From Desulfovibrio sp. JY (lineage in GTDB: Bacteria; Desulfobacterota; Desulfovibrionia; Desulfovibrionales; Desulfovibrionaceae): 64,000 nt of DNA. The stretch covers positions 3,915,501-3,979,500 of the forward strand of contig CP082962.1 of NCBI GenBank assembly GCA_021730285.1, written 5' to 3'. Below the pieces are notes generated by a model that worked only from the letters and a program-made list of their open reading frames with translations, searched no databases and was not told the DNA's origin. Shown piece by piece: positions 21,330 through 38,095 of the stretch; position 1 is the stretch's first letter; every line of letters begins with the position of its first letter. Position numbers and translations under genes: made by a program.

Positions 21330-21992
21330 CTACAACCACTCCAAACCGATGACGTGGACGGCCAGCGGGCCATGGACGCCGCGCACGTAGACGAATTCGA
21401 TGTCCCCGGTGCTGGAGACGCCGGAGACGCAGTTGACGGCGCTCGGCATGGGGCCTTTGGCCAGCCCCTCGAACACGGCCGGCAGGTCGGGCACGAGCTT
21501 TGAGGCCGGGAGCAGCGCCACGTGCAGGCGCGGCACCAAGGGCGTTGCCCGCTCCCGGCCCTTGCCGGCGGCGAGGATCAGGCTCCCCGTGGCGCACACG
21601 GCATAGGCGACGCTGGTAATGCCCATATCCACGGCGGCGAGCGACGGACAGACGCGCTCCGGCAGGTCTTCGGGAGCCAGCACGGCCACGCCGGCACCGG
21701 CCAGGGTGGCGGCCGCATCCACGGCGTCGAGGTCGGGGTGGTCCCAGCGCACGGCGGTTTTAACCCCGTTTTTGGCGACCACGGCGGCCAGGGCGGCCTT
21801 GGCCGCATCCGGCGTTCTGGCCAGCTCGAAGGTCGGGCCAAGGGCGGTCAGGGCGGCGGCGAAGGTTTCGAAATCGACGGCATCCAGACACTGGCGGCGC
21901 AGCGAGAGGGGACGCCTGGCGCGCGGCAAGCCCTTGGGCTGGCCGGCCCGCAGCCGGGAAAGGATGGCGGTTCTGGTTTGCGTTTCGTTCAT
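21330..21992 (-). CDS. lutC: Lactate utilisation protein LutC (LUD domain)
   Basis: A 220-residue LUD-domain protein, the third component of the LutABC (LldEFG) L-lactate oxidase system. Residues about 60-218 carry the LUD fold, with GITSVAYAVCATGSLIL and the terminal STGDIEFVYVRGVHGP typical of LutC/YkgG. The ATG overlaps the lutB stop (ATGA), with GGGAGG upstream. With LutA and LutB it oxidises lactate to pyruvate at the membrane, feeding the quinone or electron-transfer pool, a central growth route in Desulfovibrio. Which lactate isomer is used cannot be told here. Confidence 0.9.
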   Translation of the reverse strand: MNETQTRTAILSRLRAGQPKGLPRARRPLSLRRQCLDAVDFETFAAALTALGPTFELARTPDAAKAALAAVVAKNGVKTAVRWDHPDLDAVDAAATLAGAGVAVLAPEDLPERVCPSLAAVDMGITSVAYAVCATGSLILAAGKGRERATPLVPRLHVALLPASKLVPDLPAVFEGLAKGPMPSAVNCVSGVSSTGDIEFVYVRGVHGPLAVHVIGLEWL

Positions 21993-23407
21993 GACCGACC
22001 TCCCTTGGCCTGCGCCCGGGACAGGCGTTTGGCCATCGCCTTGAAGCGCCTGGAAAAAGGCTTTGACAGGCCCGGGAATTTCCGGCCGCGCAAAAACTTG
22101 CCCACCGGCCCGTCCGGGGCCATGGCCGCGACGCGGTCGAGCCTGGGGTCGACGGTCCGGGCCCAGGCCGCCGCCGCGCCGAAAAGCAGGGGATGGCGGG
22201 CCAGGGCGGCATAGCTTTTGGTTGCCGTGTCGGTGCCTTGCTCGGCCTGTCGGCGGCGCAACTCCTGGAGCAGCACCGGATGGTCGATGCCGGCCGGGCA
22301 GGCCTCGGCGCAGGCCCCGCAGTGGGTGCAGGCAAAGGGCTGGCGCGCATCGCCCGCCGCGTCCTTGAGCACCGAGGACAGGATCGAGCCCATGGGACCG
22401 GGGTAGACCGAGCCGTAGGCATGGCCGCCCACGCTCTGGTAGACCGGGCAGACGTTGAGGCAGGCCCCGCAACGGATGCACTTGAGGATCGGGCGCAGGA
22501 TCGGATCGGCCAGCAGTTCGGAGCGGCCGTTGTCCAGGATGACCAGGTGCATTTCCCTGGGCCCGTCGCGTTCGCCGTCGCGGCGCGCGCCGGTGAAAAG
22601 GGACAAGTGCACGGGCAGGGTCTGGCCGGTCGCGGACGGGGGCAGGATGTCGAGCACGGCGGCCGCCTCGGCCAGGGAGCCGACGACTTTTTCCAGGGTC
22701 ATCAGCGCCACGTGGATGGGCGGACAGGAGCCGGTGAGCCGGATATTGCCCTCGTTTTCCAGCACCATCACCGTGCCGGTTTCGGCCACAACGATATTGG
22801 CCCCGGTGATGCCGGCGTCGGCGGCCAGGAACTTGGCCCGCAGGCTGTCGCGGGCGATGCGCGTCATCTCCGGGATGTCGGTGCTGGTGCGGCCGAATTT
22901 TTCGGCGAAAAGCGCCGAGACCTGCTCCTTGGACACGTGCAGGGCCGGGGCCAGGATGTGGGAAGGTTTCTGGCCCATAAGCTGGATGATGTACTCGCCG
23001 AGGTCGGTCTCCACGGCCTCGATGCCGGCCGCGGCCAGGGCCTCGTTGAGCCCGATCTCCTCGCTGACCATGGACTTGCTCTTGACAGCCAGACGCACGC
23101 CGCGCGCGGTCAAAAGGTCGGTAATAAGGCGCGACGCCTGGGACGCGTCCTCGGCGAAATGGACGATGCCGCCGGCGGCGGTGACGCTCGCTTCCAGGGT
23201 CTCGAGCAGGTCGGGCAGGCGGTCGAGCGTCGCCTGGCGCACGGCCACGGCCCGGGCCCGGCGATCGGTGAAATCGGGCATGGCGTCAACCGAACGCTGC
23301 CGCAGGGCGTGGATTTGCAAAATGGCCTTGTCCAAAATGGCCCGGCTTTCGCCGTCGGCCAGAGCGGCGGCCGAAGCCTTGCCGAAATTGTGTCGGCACG
23401 CGCTCAT
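21989..23407 (-). CDS. lutB: Lactate utilisation iron-sulfur protein LutB
   Basis: A 472-residue protein: an N-terminal LUD domain (about 60-290) followed by two 4Fe-4S motifs, CIRCGACLNVCP and CTHCGACAEACP (about 300-375), and a C-terminal region contacting partner subunits. This is LutB/LldF, the electron-carrying subunit of LutABC. The ATG at 23407 overlaps the lutA stop (ATGA), so the three genes are translationally coupled; the frame extends upstream inside lutA and is not used. All eight cluster cysteines are present. Confidence 0.93.
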   Translation of the reverse strand: MSACRHNFGKASAAALADGESRAILDKAILQIHALRQRSVDAMPDFTDRRARAVAVRQATLDRLPDLLETLEASVTAAGGIVHFAEDASQASRLITDLLTARGVRLAVKSKSMVSEEIGLNEALAAAGIEAVETDLGEYIIQLMGQKPSHILAPALHVSKEQVSALFAEKFGRTSTDIPEMTRIARDSLRAKFLAADAGITGANIVVAETGTVMVLENEGNIRLTGSCPPIHVALMTLEKVVGSLAEAAAVLDILPPSATGQTLPVHLSLFTGARRDGERDGPREMHLVILDNGRSELLADPILRPILKCIRCGACLNVCPVYQSVGGHAYGSVYPGPMGSILSSVLKDAAGDARQPFACTHCGACAEACPAGIDHPVLLQELRRRQAEQGTDTATKSYAALARHPLLFGAAAAWARTVDPRLDRVAAMAPDGPVGKFLRGRKFPGLSKPFSRRFKAMAKRLSRAQAKGGRS

Positions 23408-24126
23408 AACTCCCCTCCCGCCAGCACTTCGGCCAGATGCAGCGCCTTGACCGGGACTGCGCGCTTGGCCAGGGCGGAGCTGATATTGAGCAGACAGCTC
23501 GGTTCGGCCGTGATGACCGCCTCGGCTCCGGTGGCGATGATGTCGTCGATCTTTTTGGCCAGGATGGCCTGACTCACTTCCGGGTAGTCCACGCTGAACG
23601 CCCCGCCGAAGCCGCAGCAGCGCTCGGGATGGGCAAGCGGCAAAAGCGTGAGCCCCTCCACGGCGGCAAGGAGCATTTCGGTGGCGTCCCCGACGCCAAG
23701 CGCCCGGGTGGTCTGGCAGGAGGCGTGCAGGGTCGCCCGTGCGACGTAGCGCGAACCGAGGTCCGGGCACCCGAGCTTGTCCACCAGAAACTCACCGAGT
23801 TCGAAGGTCCTGGCTGCCACGCGCGCCGCGCGGTCGCGCCAGGGATCACCCGCTTCGAAAAGCGTGGGGTACTTGCGCACCATGGCCGTGCACGAGGCCG
23901 ACGGGCTGACGATGACCGGGGCGTCCTCGAAAATTTCCACAAACCGCCTGGCCAGGGGCCGGGTCAAATCCGGACGGCCCCGTTTGTAGGCGAACTGGCC
24001 GCAGCAGGTCTGGCCGGCGGGGAGTTCAGGCGCCACCCCGGCCCGGGAAAGGACCATGGCCGTGGCCTCACCCACCCGGGGCAGCACATGCTCGACCAGG
24101 CAGGGAATGAAGAGAAAGGCTTTCAC
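23404..24126 (-). CDS. lutA: Lactate utilisation protein LutA (CCG domain)
   Basis: A 240-residue protein of the CCG (cysteine-rich, heterodisulfide reductase subunit B-like) family. Two cysteine-rich motifs, QTCCGQ (about 40-45) and RCCGFGG (about 170-176), would bind a noncubane iron-sulfur centre. It starts at GTG, with AAGGAGG seven bases upstream. First gene of lutABC; divergent from the citrate-synthase-like gene. Confidence 0.92.
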   Translation of the reverse strand: MKAFLFIPCLVEHVLPRVGEATAMVLSRAGVAPELPAGQTCCGQFAYKRGRPDLTRPLARRFVEIFEDAPVIVSPSASCTAMVRKYPTLFEAGDPWRDRAARVAARTFELGEFLVDKLGCPDLGSRYVARATLHASCQTTRALGVGDATEMLLAAVEGLTLLPLAHPERCCGFGGAFSVDYPEVSQAILAKKIDDIIATGAEAVITAEPSCLLNISSALAKRAVPVKALHLAEVLAGGEL

Positions 24127-24197: not shown

Positions 24198-24226
24198 TTT
24201 ACACTGGCCGGCACGGCGGCTATCAT
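24198..24226 (+). promoter_or_regulatory. Sigma-70 promoter of the citrate-synthase-like gene
   Basis: TTTACA, 17-nt spacer, TATCAT: five of six matches at each box with ideal spacing. Transcription would start near 24233, giving a 20-nt leader with an AAGGAAG ribosome site. It faces away from the lut promoter. Confidence 0.6.
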
Positions 24227-24252
24227 TTGGCCATTTCGCAAAAGGAAGTTCA

Positions 24253-25542
24253 ATGACAGCACCCGACACCGCCACCTTGACGTACGACGGCAAAAGCGTC
24301 TCCCTGCCCGTGATAAATGGCGACCACGTGGAAAAAGCGCTGGACGTGCGCAAGCTGCGTGCCCAGACGGGCTGGATCACCCTGGACCCCGGCTACGCCA
24401 ACACGGCCGTGTGCAAAAGCGCCATCACCCACATCGACGGGGAAAAAGGCGTGGTGCTCTACCGCGGGTACGACCTCGAGGAACTGACCCGGAAGTCCAC
24501 GTTCGTGGAAACCGCCATGCTGGTCATGTTCGGCGAACTGCCGACCAGTGCGGAACGCGAGGCGTTTCGCATCATGTTGCGCGACCAGGAGTTGTTGCAC
24601 GAGGATCTGCTCAGCCACCTGGACGGCTTTCCGCCAAACGGCCACCCCATGGCCATTTTGTCCGCCATGATCAACGCCATGGGCAGCTATTATCCGGAGC
24701 TTTACGACATCAGCTCCCAGGACGACTTTCGCCTGGCCGCGGCCAAGATCATGAGCAAGGTGCGCACGATAGCCGCCTTCAGCTTCCGCAAATCCCAGGG
24801 GATGCCGCTCAACTATCCCAATCCGAACCTGGATTACTGTCGCAACTTCCTGCACATGATGTTTTCCGTGCCGTTTTGGGTCTACGAAGCCCCGGACCCC
24901 ATCGTGCGGGCCTTAAGCATCTTCATGATGTGCCACGCCGACCAGGCCCTCGACACCTCCTGCGCCACGGTGCGCATGGTGGGATCGAGCCAGGCCAACC
25001 TGTTCGCCTCGGTCTCCGCCGGCATCTGCGCCCTGTGGGGCCGCCACCACGGCGGCGCCAGCTCGGCCGCCATCCGCATGTTCGAGGACGTGGTGGCCGG
25101 ACGCACCACGGTTTCCCGCATCTTCGAAGCGGCCAAGTCCCGCTACGGCCGGCTCATGGGCTTCGGCCAGCGGGTCTTTCACGTCGAGGACCCCCGGGCC
25201 CGCATCATCAAGGCGACTTACGAAAAACTCATCGCCACCGGCTACGCCAAGCGCGACGCCTTCCACGACATTGCCCAGGAAATAGAGGAACGGGCCAGCG
25301 GGGACGAATACTTCGCCTCGCGCCACCTGCTCCCCAACACCAATTTCTATTCGAGCCTGCTGCTTCGAGCCCTCAACTTTCCGCCCAACATGTACCCGGT
25401 CATCACGGCCATAGGGAACATGCCGGGCTGGATCGCCCACTGGAAGGAAGAAACCCATTCGCCCGACCAGCGCATCCAACGGCCGCGCCAGATTTACACC
25501 GGCCGCAAACGCCACTCCTATACCTCCATGGAGAAACGGTAG
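24253..25542 (+). CDS. Citrate synthase family protein with substituted active site
   Basis: A 429-residue protein that is clearly of the GltA fold from end to end (GSSQANLFASVSAGI, LWG..HGG, MGFG.RV, DPRA, GWIAHWKEE, RPRQIYTG). But key residues of E. coli GltA are changed. Comparing by motif, H229 (HADHEQN) is Q231, H305 (GFGHRVY) is Q306, the catalytic D362 (PNVDFYSG) is N364, and R387 (ARTVGW) is N389. H264 (H266 here), R314 (R315) and R407 are kept. A normal Si-citrate synthase should therefore be inactive or altered. Several Desulfovibrio use a Re-citrate synthase, so this may be a repurposed paralogue. Own promoter; divergent from lutA. Fold certain, activity doubtful. Confidence 0.88.
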   Translation: MTAPDTATLTYDGKSVSLPVINGDHVEKALDVRKLRAQTGWITLDPGYANTAVCKSAITHIDGEKGVVLYRGYDLEELTRKSTFVETAMLVMFGELPTSAEREAFRIMLRDQELLHEDLLSHLDGFPPNGHPMAILSAMINAMGSYYPELYDISSQDDFRLAAAKIMSKVRTIAAFSFRKSQGMPLNYPNPNLDYCRNFLHMMFSVPFWVYEAPDPIVRALSIFMMCHADQALDTSCATVRMVGSSQANLFASVSAGICALWGRHHGGASSAAIRMFEDVVAGRTTVSRIFEAAKSRYGRLMGFGQRVFHVEDPRARIIKATYEKLIATGYAKRDAFHDIAQEIEERASGDEYFASRHLLPNTNFYSSLLLRALNFPPNMYPVITAIGNMPGWIAHWKEETHSPDQRIQRPRQIYTGRKRHSYTSMEKR

Positions 25543-25555
25543 ACACGAGAAGGCC

Positions 25556-25594
25556 GCGAGAGGGGGACCCCGGGAAACGGATTCTCCCTCTCGC
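25556..25594 (+). repeat. Palindromic 3'-end element, copy 4 (divergent)
   Basis: Starts 14 nt past the citrate-synthase-like stop: GCGAGAGGGGGACC with a mismatched loop, then CTCCCTCTCGC and a GCGCTCGCGCCTGCCGAAACTTTTGC tail matching the family layout. The inner stem is degenerate. Confidence 0.6.
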
Positions 25595-25670
25595 GCGCTC
25601 GCGCCTGCCGAAACTTTTGCTTTTGAAAACGCCGCTGACCTTTCCGAACGGTTCCCGACAGGATTCTTCC

Positions 25671-28103
25671 ATGCCCCGTATGCTCCGACTGTGCATCGTC
25701 TTCGTGGTGGTTTGGCTCGGCCTGGCCCTGCCCCGCATCCCGACCGATCCTTTTGTCCCAAGCGCCCTGGCGGCCCCGGCCAACGGAGCCAAGCAGCCGG
25801 CCGACAAACCCGACAAGGACGACGCCGAGGACGCTTCGCCCAAGGATTGGCAGGTGCTGCTGTCCATCCACCAGGACGCCCTGGTCCAGCAGGCGGTGCG
25901 GTTCAAATCCCTCGAGGGACTTTTACCGAAAAACGTGCGTCACTTCAGGACCGCCCTGTCCGATCTGCAAAGCAAGCTCGACGCGCTGAACCTCATCATC
26001 TCCATTTCCGGCGGCAACCCCTGGGAAATGCGGGCCGTGCTCAGCGACATGAGCCGTTTGCGCCAAAACGCCCAGGCCCTCATCGACCCCTTTGCCAACA
26101 GCCGTGACGAGATCGACAAGATCGCCGACCGCCTCGATTCCCTCAAGGAAGAGTTCAGCAAACATCTTGCCGACGGCCAGGATCAGGCCCTGACCGACGC
26201 CATCACCTATTACCTCAACTACATCAAAGGGGTGCGGGCAAGTCTGGCCAAGGTTCGCTCGGCCCTGGAAAAACAGCTCGGTCCGGCCAAGGATTTTCTC
26301 GATGGGCTGGCGCAAAACGAGAAGACCCTCAAAGCCAGACTCCCCAAGGCCTGGCAGCAATATTACTTCACGCCCGTGGGCGAGGTCTCGTCCCTGGCCG
26401 CTTGGTCCGACACCTTTGCCAGCATCCAACTGTGGCTGCGCTCCAACATGTCCATGATCCAGTCCCTGATCGGGGGCGCGGATTCCGCGCGCACCCTGGC
26501 CGCTCTGGTCCGTATCGCCATCGGCTTTTTCATCCTGGGGCTGGCCGACTTCATGGCCGCCTTGCGACTGCGCCGCCGCTACCCGGATTTCAAGGAGCTC
26601 AAACAGACGCGCCGCATCTGGCTGCTGGTCGGCCTGGGCTGGCTTTTCAGCTGGGTGGCCGGGGACGCGCCCATGCTGCTCCACGAATTTCTCAATGCCC
26701 TGGCCGAGATATTCCTGGCCGCCGCGTTGGTCGCCTTTGCCGAAATGCTCGCCCGGCTCACCTCGCCGACGGGCAAGGCCAAACCGGCCGTGCATCTGCG
26801 CCGGCTGTGGCTGCTTTTCTCCCTGGGCCTGCTGCTCCAGATCGGCGCCTTGCCGGACGTGCTCATGACCGTGGTGTGGATGGTTCTGCTGCTGGTCTTT
26901 TTCACGATCGCGCGCAAAAAGCCCGCCGCCCGCACCGGGCCTTCGCGCCTGGCCGGCGGCTTCACCCCGGCCCTGTACATCCTGCTGTGCCTCATGACCG
27001 CCATAGGCTGGCAGCACCTGGCGGTTCTGGCCTTGGCCGGGTGGTTCCTCTTTTTGGCCGCCATCGAAACCGGCGCGGGATTGTCGCGGCTGGTAGCCAA
27101 GTGGCAGGACAAGGCCGCCCGCGAAGGCGCGCCCATCGTCACCCGGGCCGTGGTGTCCGGCCTCGGGTTCCCGCTGATTTTCCTGTCCCTGTTCTTCCTC
27201 GTCCTCTACTGGTTCTCCACGGAACTCGGCGGTCAGGAAGTCTTTGCCGCCACCGTGTCCTTTGCCGTCAAAATCGGCGACCTCCACCTGACCGTCGGCG
27301 GGCTGGCGCTGGTCCTCACCGGCTTTTTCGTGACCCGCTCCACGGTCTACGTGGTCAAGTCCTTCATCCACGACCTGCCGCGGCTCCAACCCGGGGTCGA
27401 CCCGGGCGTGCGCGACGTGCTCGACACCACCTCCACCTATCTGCTGTGGGGGTTTTACGCCATGCTCTCCCTGTTCCTGCTCGGCTTTTCCTTCACCAGC
27501 CTGGCGGTGGTCGCCGGCGGCCTTTCCGTCGGCATCGGCTTCGGCCTGCAAAACATCGTCAACAACTTCATCGCCGGCCTGATCCTGCTCTTCGGGCGCT
27601 CCATCCAGGCCGGGGACATCATCCAGATCGATACGACCTGGGGCAAGGTCAGCAAGGTCAATATCCGCAACACCGTGGTCAAGACCTTCCAGAACGCCAC
27701 GCTGTTCGTGCCCAATTCCGACCTCATCTCCGGCAAGCTCATCAACTGGACCCACCGCGACGCCACCATGCGCCGGGACATCACCGTGGGCGTGGCTTAC
27801 GGCTCCGATACGGGAAAGGTCCGCGACATCCTGCTCGATGTGGCGCGGGCCCATCCCCATGTGCTGCAAAACCCCAGCCCCAGCGTGCAGTTTTCGTCCT
27901 TCGGCGACAGTTCGCTCAATTTCCTGCTCATGGTCTGGGTCGACAACGTCGCCTACGGCATGGATACCGAGTCGGACATCCGCTTCAGCATCGACCGGCG
28001 TTTCCGTGAAGGCGCCATCGAAATCCCCTTTCCCCAGTGCGACGTGCGCATCATCCGGGAACCGGCCCCTCTTCCCGACAAAACGCCGCCCGGGGACGCC
28101 TGA
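25671..28103 (+). CDS. Large MscS-family mechanosensitive channel
   Basis: An 810-residue MscS homologue with a signal peptide (about 1-35), a long periplasmic helical region (about 55-265), some eight to ten membrane helices, and a C-terminal MscS core. The pore helix and following beta domain are plain in GGLSVGIGFGLQNIVNNF and GDIIQIDTTWGKV (about 620-680). The size and layout match the large MscK/YbdG-like channels that release solutes on hypo-osmotic shock. AGGA precedes the ATG by eight bases. It follows the citrate-synthase-like gene after a palindromic element. Confidence 0.88.
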   Translation: MPRMLRLCIVFVVVWLGLALPRIPTDPFVPSALAAPANGAKQPADKPDKDDAEDASPKDWQVLLSIHQDALVQQAVRFKSLEGLLPKNVRHFRTALSDLQSKLDALNLIISISGGNPWEMRAVLSDMSRLRQNAQALIDPFANSRDEIDKIADRLDSLKEEFSKHLADGQDQALTDAITYYLNYIKGVRASLAKVRSALEKQLGPAKDFLDGLAQNEKTLKARLPKAWQQYYFTPVGEVSSLAAWSDTFASIQLWLRSNMSMIQSLIGGADSARTLAALVRIAIGFFILGLADFMAALRLRRRYPDFKELKQTRRIWLLVGLGWLFSWVAGDAPMLLHEFLNALAEIFLAAALVAFAEMLARLTSPTGKAKPAVHLRRLWLLFSLGLLLQIGALPDVLMTVVWMVLLLVFFTIARKKPAARTGPSRLAGGFTPALYILLCLMTAIGWQHLAVLALAGWFLFLAAIETGAGLSRLVAKWQDKAAREGAPIVTRAVVSGLGFPLIFLSLFFLVLYWFSTELGGQEVFAATVSFAVKIGDLHLTVGGLALVLTGFFVTRSTVYVVKSFIHDLPRLQPGVDPGVRDVLDTTSTYLLWGFYAMLSLFLLGFSFTSLAVVAGGLSVGIGFGLQNIVNNFIAGLILLFGRSIQAGDIIQIDTTWGKVSKVNIRNTVVKTFQNATLFVPNSDLISGKLINWTHRDATMRRDITVGVAYGSDTGKVRDILLDVARAHPHVLQNPSPSVQFSSFGDSSLNFLLMVWVDNVAYGMDTESDIRFSIDRRFREGAIEIPFPQCDVRIIREPAPLPDKTPPGDA

Positions 28104-28174
28104 CGGCGCCGAAGCGCCTTTTTTCACGGGACAGCCGCCGCAGGCTTTGCTATCCTGCCCAGTGGGAGAAGAAT

Positions 28175-28450
28175 ATGAAACGCCGCGTCATTGCCTGTTG
28201 CTGCCTGCTTGCCACCGTGTTGCCCCTTGGCGCCGGCTGCGACAAGAAGGCCACGCCGCCCGCCATGCCGCAGCTTGCCAATCCGCAGCCCGGCCCCGGC
28301 GCCAGCCCCCAGGAAGTGGAACGCTACCAGTTGGAAGAGGAAAAACGCACCCTGGTGGATAACTACGGAGACAACATCGACCGCATCCAGCAGATCAACG
28401 CGCGCCTGATTCAGCTCAACATGGAAATCCACAACCAGGCCCACCAGTAG
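28175..28450 (+). CDS. Small coiled-coil lipoprotein
   Basis: A 91-residue predicted lipoprotein: signal sequence with lipobox LGAGC (Cys22), a short Pro-rich linker (about 27-43), and a charged helix (about 47-88) likely to form a coiled coil. The start has GGGAGAAG upstream. It sits between the MscS channel and bactofilin genes on the same strand. Function unknown; outer-membrane spacer or assembly roles are typical of this build. Confidence 0.75.
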   Translation: MKRRVIACCCLLATVLPLGAGCDKKATPPAMPQLANPQPGPGASPQEVERYQLEEEKRTLVDNYGDNIDRIQQINARLIQLNMEIHNQAHQ

Positions 28451-28507: not shown

Positions 28508-28930
28508 ATGTTCGGACGCACCCGCAAAAAAATGCCCCGCCAGGAGGCCATTTCCGCCTTTCTTGGCGCGGGCACCCAATACCATGGCCAGTTCAACTTC
28601 CAGGGCGTCGTGCGCATCGACGGCGGCGTCATCGGCGACATCATCTCCGACGGCACGCTGGTGCTCGGCGAACAAGGCTATGTCGAAGGCCGCATCCAGG
28701 TGGCCGAACTGGTCTCGAGCGGCCACATCGTCGGCGACGTGGAGGCCGCCAGTCGCGCCACCCTCTTTAACCGCTCGAGTCTGTGCGGCAACCTGCTGGC
28801 TCCGGCCGTGATCATCGAGGAAGGCGCGACCATCAACGGGTTCGTGCGCATGGACGCCCCTGAAAACGCCGCCCTTGACGAGGGCGAAGCCCCACCGCAG
28901 GCACTGACCGCGGGGAACGAGGCCCCGTAA
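28508..28930 (+). CDS. bacA: Bactofilin
   Basis: A 140-residue bactofilin (DUF583/polymer-forming cytoskeletal). The central beta-helix (about 20-115) shows the repeated G..G.(I/V) rungs: VRIDGGVIGDI, LVLGEQGYVEGRI, LVSSGHIVGDV, and a disordered Pro/Ala/Glu tail follows. Bactofilins self-assemble into filaments that position cell-wall or polar proteins without nucleotide. A small lipoprotein precedes it. The gene symbol is by family only. Confidence 0.9.
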   Translation: MFGRTRKKMPRQEAISAFLGAGTQYHGQFNFQGVVRIDGGVIGDIISDGTLVLGEQGYVEGRIQVAELVSSGHIVGDVEAASRATLFNRSSLCGNLLAPAVIIEEGATINGFVRMDAPENAALDEGEAPPQALTAGNEAP

Positions 28931-36340: not shown

Positions 36341-36466
36341 ACGACGCGGCCCGCTCATAACGCCTTGCGGCCGTTGTCCATGGCGACGGCCGCGAGGGCA
36401 ATCCCCCGCCGGAATTCGCCGCATGGCCCTTGGGCCGAAGGCTCCGGCGGCAATCAGGAATATCCC

Positions 36467-38095
<1,629 letters not shown>

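Follow-up and report, generated by a model that had tools for sequence, protein, structure and literature searches.

Introduction

The active site of citrate synthase, a textbook enzyme, is very conserved. The described system closest to the locus reported here is the type II (hexamer-type) Si-citrate synthase, GltA. For the E. coli enzyme, the part of PMC11167817 on which we draw describes D362 as catalytic, H264 as an active-site residue and F383 as packing on the acetyl group, and gives decreases in kcat of 97% and 93% for the F383A and F383M substitutions alone. For the pig enzyme, the excerpt of PMC4524684 used here lists histidines 235, 238, 274 and 320 as those of the active site. Throughout this work, E. 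coli K-12 GltA in its mature numbering serves as the residue reference. The matching of E. coli to pig residues at the active-site positions and the roles assigned to H229, H305, R314, R387 and R407 are our assumptions: we take R314, R387 and R407 to be the oxaloacetate arginines, H305 presumably polarises the acceptor carbonyl, and R407 is assumed to be contributed by each citrate synthase subunit to its neighbour.

The 2-methylcitrate synthase/citrate synthase II family belongs to the same superfamily and uses the same His/Asp chemistry, and pseudoenzymes that are kept beside an active paralogue are known as a general concept. Among the titles and opening lines of abstracts in one open-access library, a scope outside which most subscription journals fall, we found no description of a citrate synthase pseudoenzyme of the kind considered below.

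Here we describe a gene in a window of 64,000 nucleotides (the whole stretch of DNA that was analysed) from Desulfovibrio sp. JY. Its product, hereafter the look-alike, resembles GltA along almost its entire length, and its active site is rewritten as a set and fixed in two genera, Solidesulfovibrio and a second genus, g52. Naming by homology only would credit these bacteria with two citrate synthases, one of which very probably is not one.

Results

A full-length citrate synthase homologue with replaced pocket residues

The gene and the codons of its pocket residues lie at the following positions of the window. Residues are numbered as in the window protein, with the E. coli residue in brackets.

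24253..25542, + strand: citrate synthase-like protein with a rebuilt active site, 429 amino acids (open reading frame, structure and Pfam matches, alignment)
24943..24945, + strand: codon of Q231 (H229); Q in Solidesulfovibrio only, H in g52 (alignment)
24952..24954, + strand: codon of D234 (N232) (alignment)
25048..25050, + strand: codon of H266 (H264), the catalytic histidine, kept (alignment)
25168..25170, + strand: codon of Q306 (H305) (alignment)
25342..25344, + strand: codon of N364 (D362, the catalytic aspartate) (alignment and part of PMC11167817)
25405..25407, + strand: codon of T385 (F383, which packs on the acetyl group) (alignment and part of PMC11167817)
25417..25419, + strand: codon of N389 (R387) (alignment)
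25480..25482, + strand: codon of R410 (R407), kept (alignment)

The reading frame is open from the ATG at 24253 to the TAG at 25542. Two solved citrate synthases could be aligned across almost all of its product, 7e8n over residues 5-429 (E 8e-118) and 4tvm over residues 4-428 (E 6e-116), and Citrate_synt was the sole Pfam match (E 3e-104). This homology places the protein, over its full length, with the type II citrate synthases and predicts that the fold is kept, in agreement with the initial annotation, which had called the fold intact. Structure prediction for the window protein and six orthologues gave a mean pLDDT of 36.5 and a pTM of 0.22, and the fold and the pocket geometry considered here rest on sequence homology.

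At positions 226, 229, 232, 264, 305, 314, 362, 387 and 407, the window protein reads HQDHQRNNR and E. coli GltA reads HHNHHRDRR. Thus, like GltA, the look-alike retains H226, H264, R314 and R407; unlike GltA, it carries N232D, H305Q, D362N, R387N and F383T (I or V in g52), together with H229Q in Solidesulfovibrio. The initial annotation had named H229Q, H305Q, D362N and R387N, all of which the alignment with E. coli GltA confirms, and had missed N232D and F383T. It had also read the changes as near-isosteric silencing, which covers only part of them: D362N takes a carboxylate away and N232D brings one in, and position 383 exchanges F for T, I or V, so that the pocket is rebuilt rather than only blanked. 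Outside these positions, the window protein has H in place of K309, a residue that presumably lies close to the CoA phosphates; S. aerotolerans and the two g52 rows compared keep the lysine. The RLMGFG motif, which we take to be the acyl-CoA-binding loop, is kept in the rows compared except for one M to V change. The residues that we assume to form the NADH site differ already between E. coli GltA and the GltA of the look-alike's own genome.

All 13 full-length Solidesulfovibrio sequences, the window's included, read HQDHQRNNR, and in G012, where the look-alike is split over two contigs, one half has the H, Q and D and the other has H264, Q305, N362 and N387. The g52 proteins (n = 3; INTERMEDIATE form) read HHDHQRNNR, so that H229 is unchanged, and have I or V in place of F383. 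D232, Q305, N362 and N387 are therefore common to both genera (16/16 full-length look-alikes), H229Q is confined to Solidesulfovibrio, and H264, R314 and R407 are likewise retained in 16/16. The Q/Q/N/N set, for which the initial annotation had proposed a search, is present in all full-length Solidesulfovibrio sequences; the set shared across genera is D/Q/N/N. Pocket residues were also read in 35 canonical Desulfovibrionales sequences, a subset of the search matches; the ten pocket positions are unchanged in all 36 canonical rows (these 35 GltAs plus E. coli GltA), and the GltAs of the g52 genomes have the canonical pocket. Since 13 full-length sequences agree, the two halves in G012 agree and the 36 canonical rows never depart, the replacements in Solidesulfovibrio are not due to chance or sequencing error.

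The genome also encodes a canonical GltA

The look-alike's own genome (4,686,982 bases, one contig) holds two Citrate_synt genes. The second, at C1:4501352-4502623 (L002), encodes a protein that is 56% identical to the look-alike and has all catalytic residues; the two genes are unlinked, lying approximately 560 kb apart. The check for a true gltA that the initial annotation had called for thus turns one up, and because this canonical Si-type gene is present, the remark that Desulfovibrio can use a Re-type citrate synthase loses weight.

The two proteins were compared with the NCBIfam equivalog cut-offs for citrate synthase, which are 505 bits for NF004126 and 485.15 bits for TIGR01798. The own GltA scores 564 and 495.9 bits, above both cut-offs and the second narrowly, and E. 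coli GltA and the one g52 GltA tested also pass both models. The window protein scores 462 (NF004126) and 397.8 bits (TIGR01798), and three relatives of the look-alike score 476.5, 489.9 and 497.1 (NF004126) and 418.7, 432.8 and 438.6 bits (TIGR01798), so that 4/4 look-alikes tested fall below both. Given that it fails on D362, H305 and R387 and under both curated cut-offs, citrate synthase is not a suitable annotation for the look-alike. Nor does it score as a member of the other families considered: it reaches 239.9 bits on the 2-methylcitrate synthase/citrate synthase II model (TIGR01800), far under the cut-off of 421.3, and its match to citryl-CoA lyases (NCBIfam PRK06224 models; 6hxp) is weak, lies mostly in its C-terminal half and falls under all PRK06224 cut-offs (best 78.1 bits versus 212).

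Distribution, origin and selection

Both the look-alike and a canonical gltA are present in 14/14 Solidesulfovibrio genomes (as fragments only in G012). In g52, the look-alike is found in 3/3 genomes, each with a GltA, at 62-64% identity. Among 199 genomes sampled from the family, carriers by score outside Solidesulfovibrio were limited to these three g52 genomes, at 63-64% identity, and other matches had at most 59% identity, the G012 fragments apart. Across 247 genomes of the order, full-length look-alikes scored 863-932 bits and other citrate synthases at most 675, with none between. At the level of the phylum (395 genomes, strong matches only), four carriers were seen, namely the own genome and the three of g52. 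A scan of named genome contigs returned seven loci, all of Solidesulfovibrio, the genus being assigned from named contigs that carry an identical copy of this protein. Because the scan matches exact peptide words taken from the query and missed g52, it is no gauge of wider spread.

A tree from which the N-terminal fragment of G012 (L009, identical to L026) was excluded unites all 16 full-length look-alikes in a single clade (support 100/100). This clade branches among Desulfovibrionales citrate synthases and has a long stem (0.57 changes per column). The tree does not single out a nearest relative for this clade. The GltAs of Solidesulfovibrio and g52 group together (support 96/99), which suggests, short of proof, that the two genera are close kin. 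These observations are best explained if the look-alike arose long ago by duplication of a gltA of the Desulfovibrionales, and the simplest history is one duplication followed by a fast phase in which the pocket was rewritten and then by slow evolution, with H229Q added in Solidesulfovibrio.

Across 78 pairs drawn from 13 genomes of the genus, the look-alike has a median dN/dS of 0.138 and the GltA of the same genomes one of 0.154, and the median dN values are nearly equal (0.0776 and 0.0780, respectively). Purifying selection on the look-alike is as strong as that on GltA, and the absence of decay noted in the initial annotation is borne out by this ratio.

The positions of change were examined in canonical-invariant columns, defined as those at least 97% identical in 36 rows (35 Desulfovibrionales sequences and E. 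coli; n = 148); the G012 fragment was left out of the column counts and G012 out of the residue counts. The 16 look-alikes leave 110 of the 148 columns unchanged in every copy, and 13 columns are replaced in all 16 (65, 73, 121, 230, 231, 232, 233, 236, 268, 305, 362, 383 and 387). The latter make up 5/10 pocket columns and 8/138 others (Fisher p 0.0005), a test that was not blind, the ten pocket columns having been chosen from the pig and E. coli structures, partly after the replacements were known. Because most of the remaining protein is kept, there is no general decay; the replacements are concentrated in the oxaloacetate pocket, which has been re-specified.

Promoter-like site, likely ribosome-binding site and intergenic region

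Two signals precede the gene.

24198..24226, + strand: promoter-like site TTTACA-17-TATCAT (mean of 0.3 in shuffles)
24242..24248, + strand: likely ribosome-binding site AAGGAAG, read in the sequence just 5' of the ATG

These signals correspond to the good promoter and the strong ribosome site of the initial annotation. The TTTACA block is identical in 14/14 aligned Solidesulfovibrio upstream regions, including that of the genome without lut genes. On the other side of the gene, the putative start of the channel gene described below lies at most 25 bases from the look-alike stop codon in 11/16 copies.

A strong inverted repeat occupies 25541-25640, between the look-alike stop codon and the channel gene, and the nearest relative (G011) has a different inverted repeat at the same intergenic place. 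By eye, most other genomes are without a similar hairpin; this inspection had no shuffle control, and comparable energies occur elsewhere in these G+C-rich stretches. A single operon of look-alike and channel genes in the window's species was considered and is doubtful, given the hairpin between them.

Gene neighbourhood

The look-alike gene is flanked by the following genes.

25671..28103, + strand: MscK-type mechanosensitive channel gene, directly downstream (17/17 genomes with the look-alike)
28508..28930, + strand: bactofilin gene, in the conserved block (17/17 genomes)
23404..24126, - strand: LutA-like protein, divergent neighbour (14/17 genomes)
21989..23410, - strand: LutB-like iron-sulfur protein, upstream and divergent
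21330..22010, - strand: LutC-like LUD-domain protein, upstream and divergent

The look-alike, channel and bactofilin genes occur together as a block, at the same site in both genera. This block counts as one event, since the two genera may share it by descent. The initial annotation had placed the gene in a lut context, and this holds for 13/14 Solidesulfovibrio genomes (one of which shows lutA and lutB only, its contig ending there) but for only 1/3 g52 genomes, and the most conserved linkage is that with the downstream channel and bactofilin genes. As the main clue to function, the lut linkage is accordingly weakened by its absence from 1/14 Solidesulfovibrio and 2/3 g52 genomes.

Ten stretches of 17-18 kb from other genera yielded no match at E 1e-8 to the look-alike, the channel or the bactofilin. 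The frame orf28999 adjoins a UDP-glucose dehydrogenase gene, as it does in the window, in 9/10 other genera, and the tenth gave a match to the dehydrogenase only. A search for the channel protein in 12 genomes of other genera found no relative like those of g52 (45-47% identity over approximately 750 residues); in one genome a match of 30% spanned most of the protein, in five only the C-terminal part matched, and six were without a match at E 1e-40.

Discussion

As read from the alignment, the residues lost from the look-alike include some with which citrate synthase binds oxaloacetate and takes the proton from acetyl-CoA, and we consider it very probable that the protein does not make citrate. 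The suggestion in the initial annotation that catalysis has been turned off is thus very probably right for the citrate synthase reaction. With its homology kept, its catalytic residues replaced and fixed, its maintenance by selection and a canonical paralogue present, the look-alike would fit the general idea of a pseudoenzyme or a re-purposed paralogue. GltA, the D/Q/N/N proteins and those with Q added at 229 form a natural series that could reveal by what steps an enzyme of central metabolism turns into a binding protein or acquires a new reaction.

The initial annotation had offered a non-catalytic partner or sensor and a new acyl-CoA reaction as candidates, and either may hold. We favour ligand binding without catalysis over both a new reaction and a mixed oligomer with GltA, and give about an even chance to the proposal that the look-alike, unable to produce citrate, binds some other ligand and serves as a sensor or regulatory partner. 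Such a protein would still form a citrate synthase-like dimer with an opening and closing cleft, and its rebuilt pocket (D232, Q305, N362, T, I or V at 383, and N387, with the kept H226, H264, R314 and R407) would bind another small ligand. In the window protein, the pocket has lost one arginine and two histidines and gained one acid. Since the set of arginines and acids goes from R314, R387, R407 and D362 to R314, R407 and D232, the charges suggest a ligand that probably has fewer carboxylates than oxaloacetate. Closure of the cleft on this ligand could then provide a signal or a regulatory contact; the MscK-type channel, whose gene always adjoins, or GltA itself would be the likeliest partner. 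The retention of H264, R314 and R407 speaks against a non-catalytic ligand-binder, as does the D362/N232 pair, which reads as a carboxylate exchange that would also fit a new reaction. The argument for a partnership with the channel comes from the neighbourhood, which may go back to a single event shared by descent; the strong hairpin separates the two genes in the window's species. A more specific version of the proposal, which we regard as a long shot, has the look-alike as a partner without catalysis that binds metabolites, senses a small carboxylate or acyl-CoA state and works on an envelope module, the MscK-type channel and the bactofilin encoded alongside; if true, membrane tension or control of the cell envelope would be tied to the state of central carbon metabolism.

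The other readings draw on much of the same evidence. An enzyme with a new reaction, which we judge the main rival though rather unlikely, would still bind acyl-CoA and use H264 and D232 for acid-base chemistry. Oxaloacetate would give way to a different acceptor, which in view of the adjoining lut genes might be pyruvate or a similar monocarboxylate. The kept RLMGFG loop (one M to V change aside), H264 in 16/16, the single carboxylate that N232D and D362N together leave in the pocket (16/16), the selection acting on the gene and the lut genes as divergent neighbours in 14/17 genomes would all suit this reading. However, it must contend with the loss of both the catalytic D362 and the acetyl-packing F383, and with that of H305, the presumed carbonyl polariser; the window protein also has H instead of K309, which we place close to the CoA phosphates, although S. 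aerotolerans and the two g52 rows keep this lysine. Alternatively, the look-alike could be a regulatory subunit in mixed dimers or hexamers with GltA, where its R407 would complete the GltA site and its own site would be silent, halving or tuning activity. A GltA accompanies it in every carrier genome (14/14 and 3/3, one as a fragment), R407, which we assume to be donated across the dimer, is kept in 16/16, and 110/148 canonical-invariant columns survive in all 16. We nonetheless think this quite improbable: the genes are unlinked in the own genome (approximately 560 kb), H264 and R314 are kept equally, so that R407 is no special sign, and a silent subunit would need no fixed new pocket. Several lost catalytic residues might also be expected of a decaying duplicate without function, but we give this reading next to no credence, as no listed match has an internal stop codon, dN/dS is low, the replacements are identical in two genera and the promoter core is kept in 14/14 rows of the genus.

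Additional features of the locus and genome

The channel protein of the window is 60-65% identical to its counterparts within the genus and 88% identical to that of the nearest relative; the corresponding range for the look-alike is 82-96%, and in Solidesulfovibrio the channel protein evolves faster than the adjoining look-alike. A small open reading frame (28037-28450) between the channel and bactofilin genes is without a Pfam match and was matched at E 1e-8 in 14/14 Solidesulfovibrio and 0/3 g52 genomes. In a g52 genome without lut genes, a gene for a ProV-like glycine betaine/proline transporter ATPase (L058:12171-13376) lies a few kb upstream of the look-alike.

HMGL-like genes were looked for with a possible Re-type citrate synthase in mind, and the own genome has three above the cut-off and one weak match below it. 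One of the three lies in the window.

36341..38095: citramalate synthase, approximately 11 kb downstream of the look-alike (TIGR00977, 719.9 bits versus a cut-off of 450)

For the other two, the best NCBIfam model is 2-isopropylmalate synthase, with 420.2 and 293.2 bits for the matched cores only, the whole-protein cut-off being 532; the gene with 293.2 bits also scores 235.7 on the homocitrate synthase model (matched core only). A citramalate synthase gene follows the same gene run in 7/10 other genera examined.
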